Assembly: GCA_021160245.1 (NCBI GenBank)
Contig: JAGHCW010000142.1
Span: forward strand, 1-7,286
Length of the DNA stretch: 7,286 bases
Origin: a bacterium
Lineage (GTDB): Bacteria; B130-G9
Direction of reading: 5' to 3'
In this document: positions 1,521 through 7,286 of the stretch, one piece after another
How positions within the stretch are numbered: the first letter of the stretch is position 1
Layout: each line of letters starts with the position of its first letter
Program-made: the position numbers and the translations under genes
The notes under the pieces: model-generated
What the model was told of the DNA's origin: nothing
Seen by the model: the letters and a program-made list of their open reading frames with translations, nothing else
Databases searched by the model: none

Positions 1521-2246
1521 CTACTCGAAGACGTATAGTCCGCCTCGGACCTCCACGTTGGGTGGGTTGTGATCATGTTGCTCGAAGTAATCGTAGCCCT
1601 GCTTGAGGTTCTGCCAAAAGGCGAACCACTCTGAGTCCTTGTACTTTTGCATGTTCTCAGGCGTCATTCTGAACGGGAAAATGTGAGTTCTGAAGAAGCG
1701 CTGCCCGCCCCTTAGGGCCGCGTCCGCCAAGGCATATATCTCCTCTATTACGGGGTTCGTCATCGCATAGCACCCGATTGAGGCGCAGCTGCCATGAACC
1801 ATCAGCGCGCTCCCTGTCCAGCCTCGAGCCCTCTCGTAAGCGTTTGGGTATCCCAGATTGAACGCGAGATGGTAATCGCTGGCTGGATTCAGCCGACTAG
1901 GCGTAACGAAATAGAAACCCTCGGGCGCCCTGCCATCTCCCTGCCTCGTCTTTGGACCCAAGCCCTTCCACCCGTATGTGCACACTTTGTAGGATTTGAA
2001 GAGCTTGAAGCGGCTCCCGTCAGAGACCCACATCTCAAGCACCTTGGGCTCTTTGAAAATCCTGACGAAGATCGGCGCGCCGAGGCGCAACCCCGCTGCC
2101 TTGATTTCGGCCTTGAGGGCGGGTTTTACTCTGGCAATCGCTTGTCGAGACCGTCGGCTGCTGGGAATGCGCTCCTGTCCGTCTGCGATCCCGACCAGAG
2201 AAATGAAAAGACCACATGCGACAAAAACCGCGGCTCTGCCATTCAT
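1521..2246 (-). CDS. yafK: YafK/DpaA-family secreted murein L,D-transpeptidase-fold enzyme
   Basis: A 241-residue protein of the YkuD/ErfK catalytic fold, subfamily YafK. The E. coli member (YafK, renamed DpaA/LdtF) is about this length and acts in the periplasm, detaching Braun lipoprotein from peptidoglycan diaminopimelate; most relatives are L,D-transpeptidases. Residues 1-21 form a signal peptide (hydrophobic core about 5-20, cleavage likely after GIA). Family landmarks in order: VRIFKEPKVLEMWV (61-74), YKVCTYGWKGLGPKTRQGD (86-104), APEGFYFV (107-114), the active-site motif HGSCASIGCYAM with His151 and nucleophile Cys159 (151-162), FPFRMTPENM (190-199), and FWQNLKQGYDYFE (210-222). All are intact, so an active enzyme is expected. 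An in-frame ATG at 2276 would add ten residues, but AAAGGAG (2259-2253) lies six bases upstream of the ATG at 2246, which decides this start. No lpp-like partner is visible in the window, so the physiological substrate is open. Confidence 0.92.
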   Translation of the reverse strand: MNGRAAVFVACGLFISLVGIADGQERIPSSRRSRQAIARVKPALKAEIKAAGLRLGAPIFVRIFKEPKVLEMWVSDGSRFKLFKSYKVCTYGWKGLGPKTRQGDGRAPEGFYFVTPSRLNPASDYHLAFNLGYPNAYERARGWTGSALMVHGSCASIGCYAMTNPVIEEIYALADAALRGGQRFFRTHIFPFRMTPENMQKYKDSEWFAFWQNLKQGYDYFEQHDHNPPNVEVRGGLYVFE

Positions 2247-2252
2247 AGGCAT

Positions 2253-2259
2253 CTCCTTT
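2253..2259 (-). promoter_or_regulatory. Ribosome binding site choosing the start of the yafK-like gene
   Basis: The minus strand reads AAAGGAG, then six bases, then ATG at 2246. It is a near-consensus Shine-Dalgarno sequence. It lies inside the ten-codon extension that would begin at 2276, for which no comparable site exists, so it favours the shorter protein beginning MNGRAAVF. Confidence 0.75.
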
Positions 2260-2276
2260 GGATACGACGAAGCCAT

Positions 2277-2726: not shown

Positions 2727-3659
2727 GTGAATAAAATATCAAGACGTGAGGTCATTGAACGCGTTTCCGAGCGAACTCATCTCTCGGGCTTCAGTCTCTA
2801 TGGGCTCGATCTGTCGAGTCTTGACCTCTCCGGTCTCGAATTCAAGGGCACGAATCTATTTCGGGTAAACATGCGAGACACAAGCGCCTCAGGCGCGGAT
2901 TTCATGGATGCCAATTTCCAAAGAGCCAACCTCGCTGGCGCCGACTTTGAGAGAGCGAACCTCGAGCGGGTGAACCTATTCTCAGCCAATGCGCCGGGAG
3001 CGAACTTCCGCGAGGCGCTTCTTATGGGCGCGAGACTTGGAAACGCGAATCTCCAGAACTCAACGTTTGGTGGAGCCGACCTTCGTCGAGCGGAACTGAG
3101 CCGCTGCAATCTATCCGAATCAGACCTCACCGGCGCCCGTCTCTGCGCTGCGACGCTGGGACGCGCCTCGCTCGTCTCCTGCATTTTTGCAGGTGCAGAT
3201 TTAGAGCATGCCGTCCTGGTTGAGGCGAACCTCTCGAAGGCCAATTTGTCCGGCGCAAACTTGAACGCAGCAGACCTCCGGCAAGCAAACCTATCGCAGT
3301 GTTCTGCCAGTCAAGCCTGCTTCGCTCGCGCAAATTTACGAGGCGCCAATCTCCGATCCGCCGTGCTCTACGAGGCCGACCTCAGACAGGCAAGCGCGGC
3401 CGAGGCAAACTTGTCCGGCGCTGTCCTCATCGGGGCAGACCTTTGGAACGCTGACTTCGGGGGCGCCATCTTCAAAAGTGTGGAGCTGGCCTTCGCGCAA
3501 TTGGGGGGAGCCAACTTATCGGAAGCGGTCTTTCAACAGGCTAACCTGAACGAGGCGACGAATTGGGAGAAGGCGAATTTCGCCGGCGCCATATTCGATG
3601 GTTCCACTAAGCTGCCCCCCGGTTTTCGTCAGACCATCAAGGATGCGGTCTTTGTGTAG
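2727..3659 (+). CDS. Pentapeptide-repeat protein
   Basis: From the GTG start the protein is 310 residues. After a short non-repeat head (MNKISRREVIERVSERTHLSG), five-residue repeats of the A(D/N)LXX type run almost without break from about residue 22 to 290, roughly 50 copies, with Leu or Phe at the central position and usually Ala two residues before (for example GADFERANLERVNL, EANLSKANLSGANL). A few repeats deviate, notably around CSASQACF. The C-terminus (AIFDGSTKLPPGF) is a common cap of such proteins. The family folds as a right-handed quadrilateral beta-helix; some members (Qnr, MfpA) mimic DNA and bind gyrase, but most have no known role, and nothing here identifies a partner. There is no signal peptide, so it is probably cytoplasmic. 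An open frame continues upstream to a TTG at 2547, but those 60 codons are His/Trp/Tyr/Arg-rich, lack a ribosome binding site and contain a promoter. AGGTG at 2718-2722 could serve the GTG at 2727. Confidence 0.88.
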   Translation: MNKISRREVIERVSERTHLSGFSLYGLDLSSLDLSGLEFKGTNLFRVNMRDTSASGADFMDANFQRANLAGADFERANLERVNLFSANAPGANFREALLMGARLGNANLQNSTFGGADLRRAELSRCNLSESDLTGARLCAATLGRASLVSCIFAGADLEHAVLVEANLSKANLSGANLNAADLRQANLSQCSASQACFARANLRGANLRSAVLYEADLRQASAAEANLSGAVLIGADLWNADFGGAIFKSVELAFAQLGGANLSEAVFQQANLNEATNWEKANFAGAIFDGSTKLPPGFRQTIKDAVFV

Positions 3660-3724: not shown

Positions 3725-4729
3725 TTACAAGACTATCGGGATTTGTAGGCCGCAGCTTGCACAGCTTTTCCCCGAAAGCCCCTTGATTCTGACCGAATAG
3801 CCCGACCGCAGAATCAGCTCATTGCCGCAATTGGGACAATAGGTTGTGGAATGTACGTTGTCTCGTACATTGCCTAAGTAAACGTAGTTAAGCTTGCTTT
3901 TGGCAATCTCTGCGGCTTTGAGCAACGTGGGAATCGGGGTCTCCGGCCTCGTCATCTTGTAGCGGGGAAAATACCGAGAAAAGTGCAGCGGTGTGTCCGG
4001 CCCGAGGTTCTGATGGACCCAGTTAACCAGCCTAGATACCTGGTCGTCACTATCGTTCAGGCCGGGTATGACCAGGTTAGTTACCTCGATGTGCGTAGCC
4101 TTCCCGGCCTGAGCCGCGAAGTCCAAGACCGGCTCAAGCCTCGCCCCGCAGATGTCGCGGTAAAAATCGTCATCCATCGACTTGATGTCCAAGTTGAGGC
4201 CATCAATAAACGGAAGAAGCATCGCGGCAGGCGCCGGGTTGATGAAGCCATTCGTAACTAACGTGGTCTTCAAACCACGCTCTCTTGCGAGCTTGGACGT
4301 CTGAAGGACGTACTCGAACCAGACCAGCGGCTCGGTATATGTAAAGCTGATGCCGATGCAGTCATGCTCGCCGCCGGCAATCTCAATCGCGCGCTCTGGC
4401 GAAAGGTGTGACGTCGGCACGCGTTCTTGCGAGATCTCCCAGTTCTGGCAGTTCTCGCAGCGGAAATTGCAGGCGTTCGGACCAATCGAGAGCACACTAT
4501 TGCCCGGATAAAAATGATAGAGAGGCTTTTTCTCCACAGGATCAACGTGAAGCGCAATCGTCTCCGCAAACGTCGTGCTGAAAAGCTTGCCCCCTTTGTT
4601 CATCCGGCCCCGACAGAGCCCAACCTTGCCTTCGGGGATCACGCACTCATGCGGGCACAGGACGCAGCGAACATTCTTGCCCTCAGATTGCTCATAGAAC
4701 ATCGCCTCTATCAAACGGGTATTCTTCAT
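3725..4729 (-). CDS. amrS: AmmeMemoRadiSam system radical SAM enzyme
   Basis: A 334-residue radical SAM protein related to pyruvate formate-lyase activating enzymes. The 4Fe-4S/SAM motif is CNFRCENC (Cys87, Cys91, Cys94). Upstream lies a family-typical cysteine cluster CVLCPHEC...C (Cys22, 25, 29, 39) followed by VDPVEKKPLYHFYPG (62-76). Downstream are FTYTEP (129-134), LVTNGF (157-162), LNLDIKS (178-184), and IPGLND (221-226). A C-terminal zinc-ribbon-like pair, CPNC (298-301) and CASC (323-326), closes the protein. This architecture is that of the radical SAM member that occurs with AMMECR1 and Memo proteins; its substrate is not established. Neither AMMECR1 nor Memo is in this window. The ATG at 4729 overlaps the stop of the upstream polyprenyl synthase (ATGA), with AGGAGG nine bases before it, so the two are translationally coupled. 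Start and full length are well supported. Confidence 0.93.
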   Translation of the reverse strand: MKNTRLIEAMFYEQSEGKNVRCVLCPHECVIPEGKVGLCRGRMNKGGKLFSTTFAETIALHVDPVEKKPLYHFYPGNSVLSIGPNACNFRCENCQNWEISQERVPTSHLSPERAIEIAGGEHDCIGISFTYTEPLVWFEYVLQTSKLARERGLKTTLVTNGFINPAPAAMLLPFIDGLNLDIKSMDDDFYRDICGARLEPVLDFAAQAGKATHIEVTNLVIPGLNDSDDQVSRLVNWVHQNLGPDTPLHFSRYFPRYKMTRPETPIPTLLKAAEIAKSKLNYVYLGNVRDNVHSTTYCPNCGNELILRSGYSVRIKGLSGKSCASCGLQIPIVL

Positions 4730-5790
4730 CGACCAAGGCCTCCTGATTGGTTTCCCAATTCCTCTCCCGTGCGCTTAAACTCAAGAAGCGATTGCTCGCC
4801 TCTTTCAATCATCATCTCGCAGAGCGCGGCGAGATTGTCGGCAAGACCGTCGCCTCGATCAAGCGCCGAAATACAGCGTTGTGCCTTGCCAAAAGAACCC
4901 ATCGCGGCATCGAGCGTGGCCGAAAGGGCATCCCCCTTAAGCACGAGCTTCCTGATTCGCGACTCCTCCTCCAGCCATGATTCAACGTTGTCCGACGCCA
5001 ACAGCCGTCGGCTTCTAAACGGCGATTCACGAACCTCGCTATCATCGCCAGATGCCTCAAGCGCCAGAATAACCGGCAACGTGATAACCCCATGCGAGAG
5101 GTCCTGGCCACAAGGTTTGCCCATTGGCTCGTCATCGCTTGTGAAATCAAGCAGATCATCGACTATCTGAAAGCCCTGTCCAAAAAGCCGCCCGAACTCA
5201 GAGAGAGCGTCCGAATCGGCTCCGTTGTGGCCATGAAGACTCGATCCAATCCTGCAGGACGCGGCAAAAAGCTCGGCCGTCTTGCGATTGATGATGCTCA
5301 TATATTGATCAACCGTGAGCGAGAGATTGAAGAGGTTCGCCTGCTCGGTCAACTCGCCCTCGGCACACAATTCCACAGCGCCAGCAAGTTGGGCTAACGC
5401 CTCAAACTCCTGACTCTCCGCAAGTTTCCTGAGGCATTTGGCGAATAGAAAATCGCCTAGCAAGATCGAGCCCTTGTCGCCGAAAAGCCGCGCAACCGTC
5501 GGGCGCCGGCGCCTCGCGCATGCGCGGTCGATCACGTCATCGTGCAACAGCGTGGCCAGATGCAGCATCTCAACCGCACACCCGAGCTTTGCGACTCGGC
5601 TTGAGTTTGCCTTCTGACCGTTCTTGCTGATTAAGAGCAGTAAGCCTGCTCGAAGCAGCTTGCCCTGGCTCTCAAGCGAGCTTTTAAGCGACTCGTCCGC
5701 CGGCAGCTCATCGGCCGACATGACCTCTCGAAGCAGCTGCCGAACATCCGCAAGCTCGCTCGAAACGCCACAGAATATGTCATTGTTCAT
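4726..5790 (-). CDS. Long-chain polyprenyl diphosphate synthase (trans-isoprenyl, IspB/HepT type)
   Basis: A 354-residue all-alpha trans-prenyltransferase that condenses isopentenyl diphosphate onto an allylic diphosphate. The first aspartate-rich motif is DDVID (Asp84, 85, 88) in HLATLLHDDVID. The second is DDLLD (211-215) in FQIVDDLLDF. Other substrate-binding elements are KLLR (44-47), an Arg run RRRRPT (93-98), RKTAELF (169-175), and GKPCGQDLSHGVITLP (224-239). The small residues Ala-Thr five and four before the first motif resemble octaprenyl-type IspB (TATLLHDD), suggesting a product of C35 or longer, typically a quinone side chain. Two departures from the usual GGKxxRP are Gln42 for the first Gly and Ala48 for Pro; both look tolerable. 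The middle-to-C-terminal part (about 245-300) is less conserved. The start is the ATG at 5790; a GTG directly before it (5793) is an alternative. It leads a two-gene operon with the radical SAM gene. Confidence 0.93.
   Translation of the reverse strand: MNNDIFCGVSSELADVRQLLREVMSADELPADESLKSSLESQGKLLRAGLLLLISKNGQKANSSRVAKLGCAVEMLHLATLLHDDVIDRACARRRRPTVARLFGDKGSILLGDFLFAKCLRKLAESQEFEALAQLAGAVELCAEGELTEQANLFNLSLTVDQYMSIINRKTAELFAASCRIGSSLHGHNGADSDALSEFGRLFGQGFQIVDDLLDFTSDDEPMGKPCGQDLSHGVITLPVILALEASGDDSEVRESPFRSRRLLASDNVESWLEEESRIRKLVLKGDALSATLDAAMGSFGKAQRCISALDRGDGLADNLAALCEMMIERGEQSLLEFKRTGEELGNQSGGLGR
4739..4744 (-). promoter_or_regulatory. Ribosome binding site for the radical SAM gene inside the upstream gene
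   Basis: The minus strand has AGGAGG within the last codons of the polyprenyl synthase gene, nine bases before the ATG at 4729. With the four-base ATGA overlap it shows that the radical SAM gene is translated from the same message and probably coupled to its neighbour. Confidence 0.75.
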
Positions 5791-5834
5791 CACCGCCCGC
5801 TCTGCCTCGTTTCTATATCTTGAAGCCCGATCTC

Positions 5835-5863
5835 AAAATACGACTCATTCGTTTGGGCGTCAA
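5835..5863 (-). promoter_or_regulatory. Sigma70-type promoter of the polyprenyl synthase-radical SAM operon
   Basis: On the minus strand TTGACG (5863-5858; five of six to consensus) is followed by exactly 17 bases and TATTTT (5840-5835; four of six). Transcription would begin near 5828 and give a leader of about 38 bases before the ATG at 5790. It is the best-formed promoter on this strand in the gap and would drive both genes of the operon. Confidence 0.6.
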
Positions 5864-5988: not shown

Positions 5989-7286
5989 ATGAATCGTATT
6001 ATTTCCGTAGCTGCATTCCTCTTGATTATGGTGTCGTGGCCTTGCCTCGCCGGCGAAACCTGGCTCAACTACACATCAGGTTCCTTTGTGTGCGATTTCG
6101 CGCTGGAGGGGGACAACTACGTCTGGTGTGTCGGTCAGGGAGGCGCGACACGGGTTGATATAAGAAACGGCGAGAAGATCAACTACACAAGGGCGGACGG
6201 CCTTCCGTCGAACTGGCTTTATGAGGTTGTCGTCGATAAGAACGGTCGCAAATGGTTCAGCATGTATGGCGACGCGGTCTGCGTCTTTGATGGGGAGACT
6301 TTCAAGACATATACTCCCGAGAACAGCGGGCTGCCGAGGGGATTCACGACGGGGATTATCGGCAGCGCGAGGCGAATGGCGGTTGATACTCGTGGAGGCG
6401 TCTGGTTCGGGAGTGACAAGGGCCCCGTCAGCAGATTCGATAGGGGCAAGTGGACTGTATTTGATGCCGCCAATAGCGGGCTTCCCGACGAAGGTTTGGA
6501 GCCGGTTGTCAGCGACAGATTCGGGAATGTGTGGTTTGCATCATCCGCCGGCCTGACGAAGTTCGACGGCGAGAATTGGACAACATACGATCCCACGGTA
6601 GCCGGCTTGCGCTATTTTTACGTGAGGGATATGGCGGTGGATAGCGACGGCTCCGTCTGGGTTGGGACCCTCTTGAGTGGTTTCTACATCTTCGATGGAG
6701 AGAATTGGACGAAGTGCAATCCCCCATCAACCAGCGAACATTACGGCTCTATTAACGTGGTCGCGATCGACGAATCGGGTCGGAAGTGGATGTCGTCCTA
6801 TTACGGCGGAGTGTCGTCATTTGACGGAGAGAAGTGGGTATCATACACGCCGGAGAATAGCGGCCTTTCGTGGGTATCTTTCGATAGAATACTGATAGAC
6901 CAAAGGGGCAGGAAGTGGACCTCAGAAGTCTCCGGCGGGGCCCGGATCCTCGACGGAATGAACTGGGAGCGGTTCGTTCCCGGCGCATACGACATGCCGG
7001 CGGCGCTGACCGCAATAGCGATGGACCGGGACAATCAGGTCTGGTTCGGTTCCGCTGGCGGAGGCGCAATGTCATTTGATGGTGAGAATTGGACGAATTA
7101 CAACACTAAAAACAGCGGCCTTGCGAATCGCTTTATTCATTGCATTGCGATAGATGGCAAGGGCCGGAGGTGGTTTGGGACATACAATGGCGTCAGCGTC
7201 TTTGACGGCGTGAGCTGGCGCAGCTATGACTCCGAGAACAGCGGACTGGCCGGCCCGATCGTCAAGGCTATCGCCGAGGACCGGAA
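5989..7286 (+). CDS. Secreted multi-blade beta-propeller protein, Reg_prop-like repeats (3' partial)
   Basis: The frame from 5989 stays open to the window end: 432 codons with no stop. Residues 1-21 form a signal peptide (MNRII, hydrophobic core, cleavage after CLA), so the product is exported. The rest is a tandem repeat of about 43 residues with the pattern D-x-x-G-x-x-W-F-G-x-x-x-G-G-x-x-x-F-D-G-E-x-W-x-x-Y-x-x-x-N-S-G-L-P. The first Trp of each unit falls at residues 46, 89, 139, 182, 224, 267, 310, 352 and 395; only the second interval (50) departs from 42-43, owing to an insertion near 118-126. This is the pattern of two-component-regulator propeller (Reg_prop) repeats. In other proteins such blades form the sensor part of hybrid histidine kinases or stand-alone secreted proteins such as PorZ; what follows the blades here is outside the window. 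It is divergent from the polyprenyl synthase operon. Function is unknown. Confidence 0.9.
   Translation, partial: MNRIISVAAFLLIMVSWPCLAGETWLNYTSGSFVCDFALEGDNYVWCVGQGGATRVDIRNGEKINYTRADGLPSNWLYEVVVDKNGRKWFSMYGDAVCVFDGETFKTYTPENSGLPRGFTTGIIGSARRMAVDTRGGVWFGSDKGPVSRFDRGKWTVFDAANSGLPDEGLEPVVSDRFGNVWFASSAGLTKFDGENWTTYDPTVAGLRYFYVRDMAVDSDGSVWVGTLLSGFYIFDGENWTKCNPPSTSEHYGSINVVAIDESGRKWMSSYYGGVSSFDGEKWVSYTPENSGLSWVSFDRILIDQRGRKWTSEVSGGARILDGMNWERFVPGAYDMPAALTAIAMDRDNQVWFGSAGGGAMSFDGENWTNYNTKNSGLANRFIHCIAIDGKGRRWFGTYNGVSVFDGVSWRSYDSENSGLAGPIVKAIAEDR

Follow-up and report, generated by a model that had tools for sequence, protein, structure and literature searches.

The locus and its two genes

A gene for a polyprenyl diphosphate synthase overlaps the gene of the AmmeMemoRadiSam system radical SAM enzyme (amrS) in the DNA studied here, which raises the question of whether AmrS takes part in long-chain isoprenoid metabolism. 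The window, that is, the whole stretch analyzed, makes up the entire contig C153 (7286 bp) in a metagenome-assembled genome of 3.43 Mb and 95% completeness. Both genes were found on the minus strand, at the positions given in a previous sequence-only reading, and scored above the family cut-offs. The following features were located:

4726..5790, minus strand: trans-polyprenyl diphosphate synthase gene, long-chain type, first of the pair (PF00348)
5527..5541, minus strand: first DDxxD motif (DDVID) of the synthase, residue 84
5146..5160, minus strand: second DDxxD motif (DDLLD) of the synthase, residue 211
3725..4729, minus strand: amrS, AmmeMemoRadiSam system radical SAM enzyme, window (cytosolic) clade (TIGR04337)
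4613..4666, minus strand: N-terminal four-cysteine module of AmrS (C22, C25, C29, C39), invariant in 39 AmrS sequences
4448..4471, minus strand: radical SAM CX3CX2C motif (C87, C91, C94), invariant in 39 AmrS sequences
3752..3838, minus strand: C-terminal CxxC...CxxC module (C298, C301, C323, C326), compared in 39 AmrS sequences
4726..4729, minus strand: ATGA stop/start overlap of synthase and amrS, read from the sequence
4739..4744, minus strand: AGGAGG, ribosome-binding-like site for amrS within the synthase gene, 9 bases 5' of the amrS ATG
5835..5863, minus strand: weak promoter-like hexamers TTGACG-17-TATTTT, 9/12 matches

The ATGA overlap and the internal AGGAGG, both described in the earlier reading, were borne out. 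The synthase start was placed at the ATG at 5790, a GTG at 5793 being also possible. The promoter upstream of the pair had been called well formed, a description that could not be maintained: two sites with 9/12 matches were found versus 1.3 ± 1.1 expected by chance. Since this count is at chance level, the hexamers are not evidence of a promoter.

Three other genes were observed in the window. One encodes a YkuD-domain protein related to the LdtF/DpaA peptidoglycan enzymes (1521-2276, minus strand; 237 bits, below the equivalog cut-off of 365), and another a long pentapeptide-repeat protein of about 309 aa (2730-3659, plus strand; PF00805, 240 bits). The third, a secreted-looking protein with Reg_prop/PorZ-like propeller repeats (5989-7284, plus strand), is truncated by the contig end.

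The synthase is an intact protein of 354 aa that reached 193 bits with PF00348 (cut-off 27). Small residues (HLATLLHDDVID) precede its first DDxxD motif, as in long-chain enzymes, and decaprenyl, solanesyl and octaprenyl synthases are among its closest relatives of solved structure. Judging from these motifs, the product would be a long all-trans polyprenyl diphosphate. The exact chain length was not assigned, because the score with the solanesyl diphosphate synthase model TIGR02749 (190 bits) was below the equivalog cut-off of 383. With the other intact synthase of the genome (C204, adjoining a dxs-like gene) showing the short-chain pattern HTYSLIHDDLP, a third match being a contig-end fragment with LDDLPCMD, and a fourth, weak match having no DDxxD within its first 150 residues, the window enzyme looks like the only intact long-chain synthase of the genome.

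AmrS, with 334 aa, scored 312 bits with TIGR04337 (curated cut-off 220). Residues C298, C323 and C326 of its C-terminal module were invariant in the 39 sequences and C301 was present in at least 90% of them. A sequence search found no solved structure of the family. An AlphaFold2 model (pLDDT 95.9) was best matched by pyruvate formate-lyase activating enzyme (PDB 3cb8, 3c8f; Z 23.3, rmsd 2.4 over 224 residues), NifB being the next structural family (Z 17.1), and the nearest NCBIfam models besides its own were glycyl-radical activases. The modelled core was thereby shown to resemble that activating enzyme, with which it shares the radical SAM fold and the CX3CX2C motif. The two differ in that identity is 20%, AmrS adds N- and C-terminal cysteine modules, no glycyl-radical enzyme adjoins it, and its 63 bits with the activating protein model TIGR02493 are below the equivalog cut-off of 232. 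An activase-like core suggests that AmrS should form a 5'-deoxyadenosyl radical and abstract a hydrogen from its target, and the model equally allows the target to be a protein.

Other relatives of AmrS were considered and set aside. A likeness to GDGT synthase (7tol, Z 13.8, rank 50) was one among many radical SAM folds and was given no weight. A viperin (pVip) or defence reading was dropped: the NCBIfam viperin model gave 26 bits (cut-off 180), and a weak PADLOC match (30 bits) spanned the shared radical SAM core.

Recurrence of the gene pair

Two samples were used, one of 70 loci resembling the window amrS, taken from named genomes, and one of 98 domain-wide genomes, which were searched with TIGR04337 and from which the surroundings of the matches were retrieved. 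Neighbours within four genes of amrS were assigned by profiles built from the loci, with representatives confirmed by Pfam; gene calling was crude (longest open frames) and may have overlooked small neighbours. A tree of 163 AmrS proteins comprised a window clade of 89 and a rest of 74, and since its deepest split was weak (48%), these two clades are to be taken as working classes. Counts by clade (41/89 versus 3/74) were used instead of counts by best BLAST match (44/99 versus 0/64).

A polyprenyl synthase was found near amrS at 15 of the 89 window-clade loci and at none of the 74 others. In all 15 cases it lies upstream on the same strand, directly adjacent at 11 loci and separated by an AMMECR1 gene at four (L013, L025, L049, L055). 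When synthase or UbiA was counted, the figures were 22/89 versus 0/74 (p 5.8e-07). At least five phyla are named at the pairing loci: Coatesbacteria, Latescibacterota, Krumholzibacteriota, Nitrospinota and Thermodesulfobacteriota. The domain-wide sample alone, which was not chosen for likeness to the window gene, had a synthase at 5 of 27 window-clade loci and at 0 of 67 others; three of the five come from the window's own family, so they represent three lineages only. With an assumed density of about 3 such genes in 2500, chance would give 0.26 loci in 27.

All four genomes of the window's family, which belong to three genera, keep the pair, with gaps of -4, -4, -4 and -8 and identities of 64-88% for amrS and 43-82% for the synthase. 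Flanking genes vary between the genera and the pair alone is common to them. The varying flanks and the spread over five or more named phyla show that the pairing is more than a local coincidence. The adjacency extends past the organism and its close relatives, which makes the link with long-chain isoprenoid metabolism proposed by the sequence-only reading a fair inference; the proposal is limited by the 74 of 89 window-clade amrS genes that have no adjoining synthase.

The pairing requires four changes on a maximum-likelihood tree of 87 rows. Independent origins had been considered on the strength of the four changes on free trees, a claim that was dropped after an AU test did not reject a single clade of paired amrS (pAU 0.67; the constrained tree scored 15.5 log units higher). 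Since one origin is not rejected, the neighbourhoods cannot count as many independent witnesses. Accordingly, the pairing is either ancient or mobile, and it has been kept.

This result, together with the many unpaired window-clade genes, would also fit a pairing that is functionally meaningless, either an old arrangement inherited with both genes or chance. However, the overlap persists while the flanks change between genera, the synthase is invariably upstream in the same orientation, pairing is missing from the rest of the tree, and five loci in three lineages were observed against the 0.26 expected under the assumed gene frequency. Such an explanation is considered very unlikely.

AMMECR1 and Memo

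The absence of AMMECR1 and Memo beside amrS had been pointed out in the sequence-only reading. It is true of the 7286 bp contig, but a search of the genome located both elsewhere, as a Memo-AMMECR1 fusion on C130 and as two more Memo genes, one on C89 and one on C129. The window gene resembles the AmmeMemoRadiSam system (TIGR04337, AMMECR1 PF01871, Memo TIGR04336/PF01875) in its family score, radical SAM motif and three cysteine modules, and its genome also encodes AMMECR1 and Memo. It differs in that AMMECR1 and Memo do not adjoin it, and in that members of its clade have no signal peptide and lie next to polyprenyl synthase, UbiA or Rnf/ApbE genes.

AMMECR1, Memo and amrS co-occur almost perfectly over the 98 genomes. 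Genomes with a window-clade amrS had AMMECR1 in 29/29 and Memo in 29/29, those with only the other clade in 35/37 and 33/37, and those without amrS in 1/32 and 5/32, respectively. In the window's family (f1, four genomes) the sole AMMECR1 found was the Memo-AMMECR1 fusion, which has a hydrophobic signal-like N-terminus; no stand-alone cytosolic AMMECR1 was found in these four genomes.

A second, apparently exported set was also observed in this family (contigs C130 (L212) and C8 (L139); L284-L286), comprising this fusion in all four genomes and, in the window genome, an additional AmrS with a twin-arginine-like signal (SRREFLKASLACASC). If that AmrS were exported, it would be an unusual case of an extracytoplasmic radical SAM enzyme.

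The tight co-occurrence of the trio is what would be expected if AmrS were an activase that puts a radical or other mark on a protein partner, such as AMMECR1 (at LRGCIG) or Memo, which then acts. The AMMECR1 gene lying between synthase and amrS at four loci fits this alternative, as do the glycyl-radical activases as nearest models and the activating enzyme as by far the closest fold. It is countered by the scanned genes of the window, which include no glycyl-radical enzyme gene, and by the confinement of AMMECR1 to an exported-looking fusion in family f1. Moreover, animals are not known to have an AmrS, and human AMMECR1 nonetheless keeps LRGCIG. The alternative is judged unlikely, and AMMECR1 was not adopted as a certain target of AmrS.

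In the archaeal phylum of Methanosphaera, 30 loci were compared, and most of them show the arrangement eno-rpsB-Memo-mevalonate kinase-isopentenyl phosphate kinase, the identity of the two kinases being verified on representatives. The eno-rpsB-Memo portion alone was seen in three Thermoplasmata and in Methanosphaera. As in the bacterial locus, a member of the trio shares an operon with isoprenoid genes; in the archaea, however, that member is Memo and not AmrS, and the genes are precursor genes of the mevalonate pathway where the bacteria have a long-chain synthase. The link between the trio and isoprenoid genes therefore extends to a second member and a second domain of life. Burroughs et al. 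in 2019 reportedly proposed a role in nucleotide and aliphatic isoprenoid modification for Memo.

Electron-transfer genes near amrS

Genes of the Rnf, ApbE, NusG_II or EetB families adjoin amrS at 25 of the 89 window-clade loci and at 3 of the 74 others. By family, the window-clade counts were 16 for ApbE, 11 for NusG_II, 7 for RnfB and 6 each for RnfA/E and EetB (PF07456). PF07456 ("Gx") had been tried as an isoprenoid gene; this was abandoned and the counts were redone, since the family is EetB, an FAD-exporting ECF subunit that is often colocalised with ApbE and Rnf (PMC9973259). UbiA was present at 7 loci, 6 of which also carry Rnf/ApbE or NusG_II. What the amrS neighbours have in common is a connection with electron transfer at the membrane and with the isoprenoid components of that process. 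Neither AMMECR1 nor a radical SAM enzyme is mentioned in two papers on flavinylation (PMC8238504 and PMC11334425).

Several arrangements were observed among individual loci. RnfA/E and RnfB lie just upstream of amrS at L143, L153, L158, L201, L021 and L040, some of which have UbiA, ApbE or Memo/AMMECR1-like genes between Rnf and amrS or nearby. At L029, L037, L039 and L048 (Bacillota/Hydrogenispora), amrS overlaps or abuts a CobO-like gene, with an AMMECR1-containing gene upstream in three of the four. At L032, L033, L043 and L047 (Cloacimonadota and one labelled Armatimonadetes), it is flanked by a KdtA-like (Kdo transferase) gene and NusG_II.

These neighbours could mean that AmrS serves flavin/Rnf-type membrane electron transfer and leaves the isoprenoid untouched, while the synthase makes the tail of a redox carrier. 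The family counts, the role of EetB and the joint occurrence of UbiA with Rnf/ApbE or NusG_II argue for it, and the Listeria-type flavin-based electron-transfer locus (ApbE/FmnB, EetA, EetB) likewise contains prenyl genes. Some window-clade amrS genes lie among ApbE, NusG_II and EetB as in that locus; ApbE and EetA/EetB are nonetheless absent from the scanned genes of the window and from the 15 synthase loci. More generally, synthase and flavin/Rnf genes never occur together at one locus (0/15 synthase loci). No flavin/Rnf family was found among the window's scanned genes, the Rnf of this genome being on another contig, and Rnf is similarly frequent in genomes with a window-clade amrS (17/29) and in those with only the other clade (22/37). 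On balance this explanation is doubtful.

The quinone question

AmrS had been suggested to act on a prenyl or quinone intermediate, a suggestion for which nothing was found in support. UbiA does not track window-clade amrS, being present in 24/29 genomes that have it and in 28/32 genomes without amrS. Within the 98-genome set, UbiA was undetected in five window-clade genomes, all of which have Rnf, an observation that also fits the flavin/Rnf explanation. MqnA/D were absent from all four family genomes in a search for them. Given these two absences, the quinone version of the isoprenoid idea is weakened and has no positive support here.

Proposed role of AmrS

Taken together, the synthase and amrS probably constitute a genuine two-gene operon in which selection maintains the tight arrangement. 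The synthase would supply a long all-trans polyprenyl diphosphate, and AmrS, as the cytosolic member of the AMMECR1-Memo-AmrS system, may generate a 5'-deoxyadenosyl radical and take a hydrogen from its target. From the gene neighbourhoods, AmrS, Memo and AMMECR1 would perform or switch on a step that makes or modifies a membrane isoprenoid, one that may use a long prenyl chain and serve anaerobic membrane electron transfer. The target could be either the isoprenoid itself or a partner protein, both being compatible with this proposal.

This reading as a whole is tentative, with a probability of roughly 0.45. In its favour are the pairing of 15/89 versus 0/74, the co-occurrence of the trio, the archaeal mevalonate operon, the Rnf/ApbE neighbours at 25/89 loci and the structural match with Z 23.3. 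Against it, most window-clade amrS genes have no adjoining isoprenoid gene, synthase and Rnf/ApbE neighbours are mutually exclusive by locus, and a single origin of the pairing is compatible with the trees (pAU 0.67). The exported-looking fusion as sole AMMECR1 of family f1 and the presence of UbiA independently of window-clade amrS also count against it. A bolder version would make AMMECR1-Memo-AmrS an anaerobic isoprenoid-modification system of bacteria and archaea, in which cytosolic AmrS modifies the polyprenyl chain or a lipid derived from it, yielding a membrane electron carrier not described so far; this is regarded as quite unlikely.

The gene pair is real and conserved. It adds precision to a standing hypothesis on AMMECR1-Memo-AmrS and does not amount to a new kind of system. 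The synthase-amrS operon and the two amrS clades are new here, while the isoprenoid idea predates them. Conservation of Memo and AMMECR1 extends to humans, as MEMO1 and as AMMECR1, the latter being involved in a developmental syndrome. The bacterial synthase operon and the archaeal link of Memo to mevalonate genes narrow the search for the role of the trio to isoprenoid or membrane-redox chemistry, and the synthase and AmrS offer a testable enzyme pair for a trio of which two members, Memo and AMMECR1, reach into humans.
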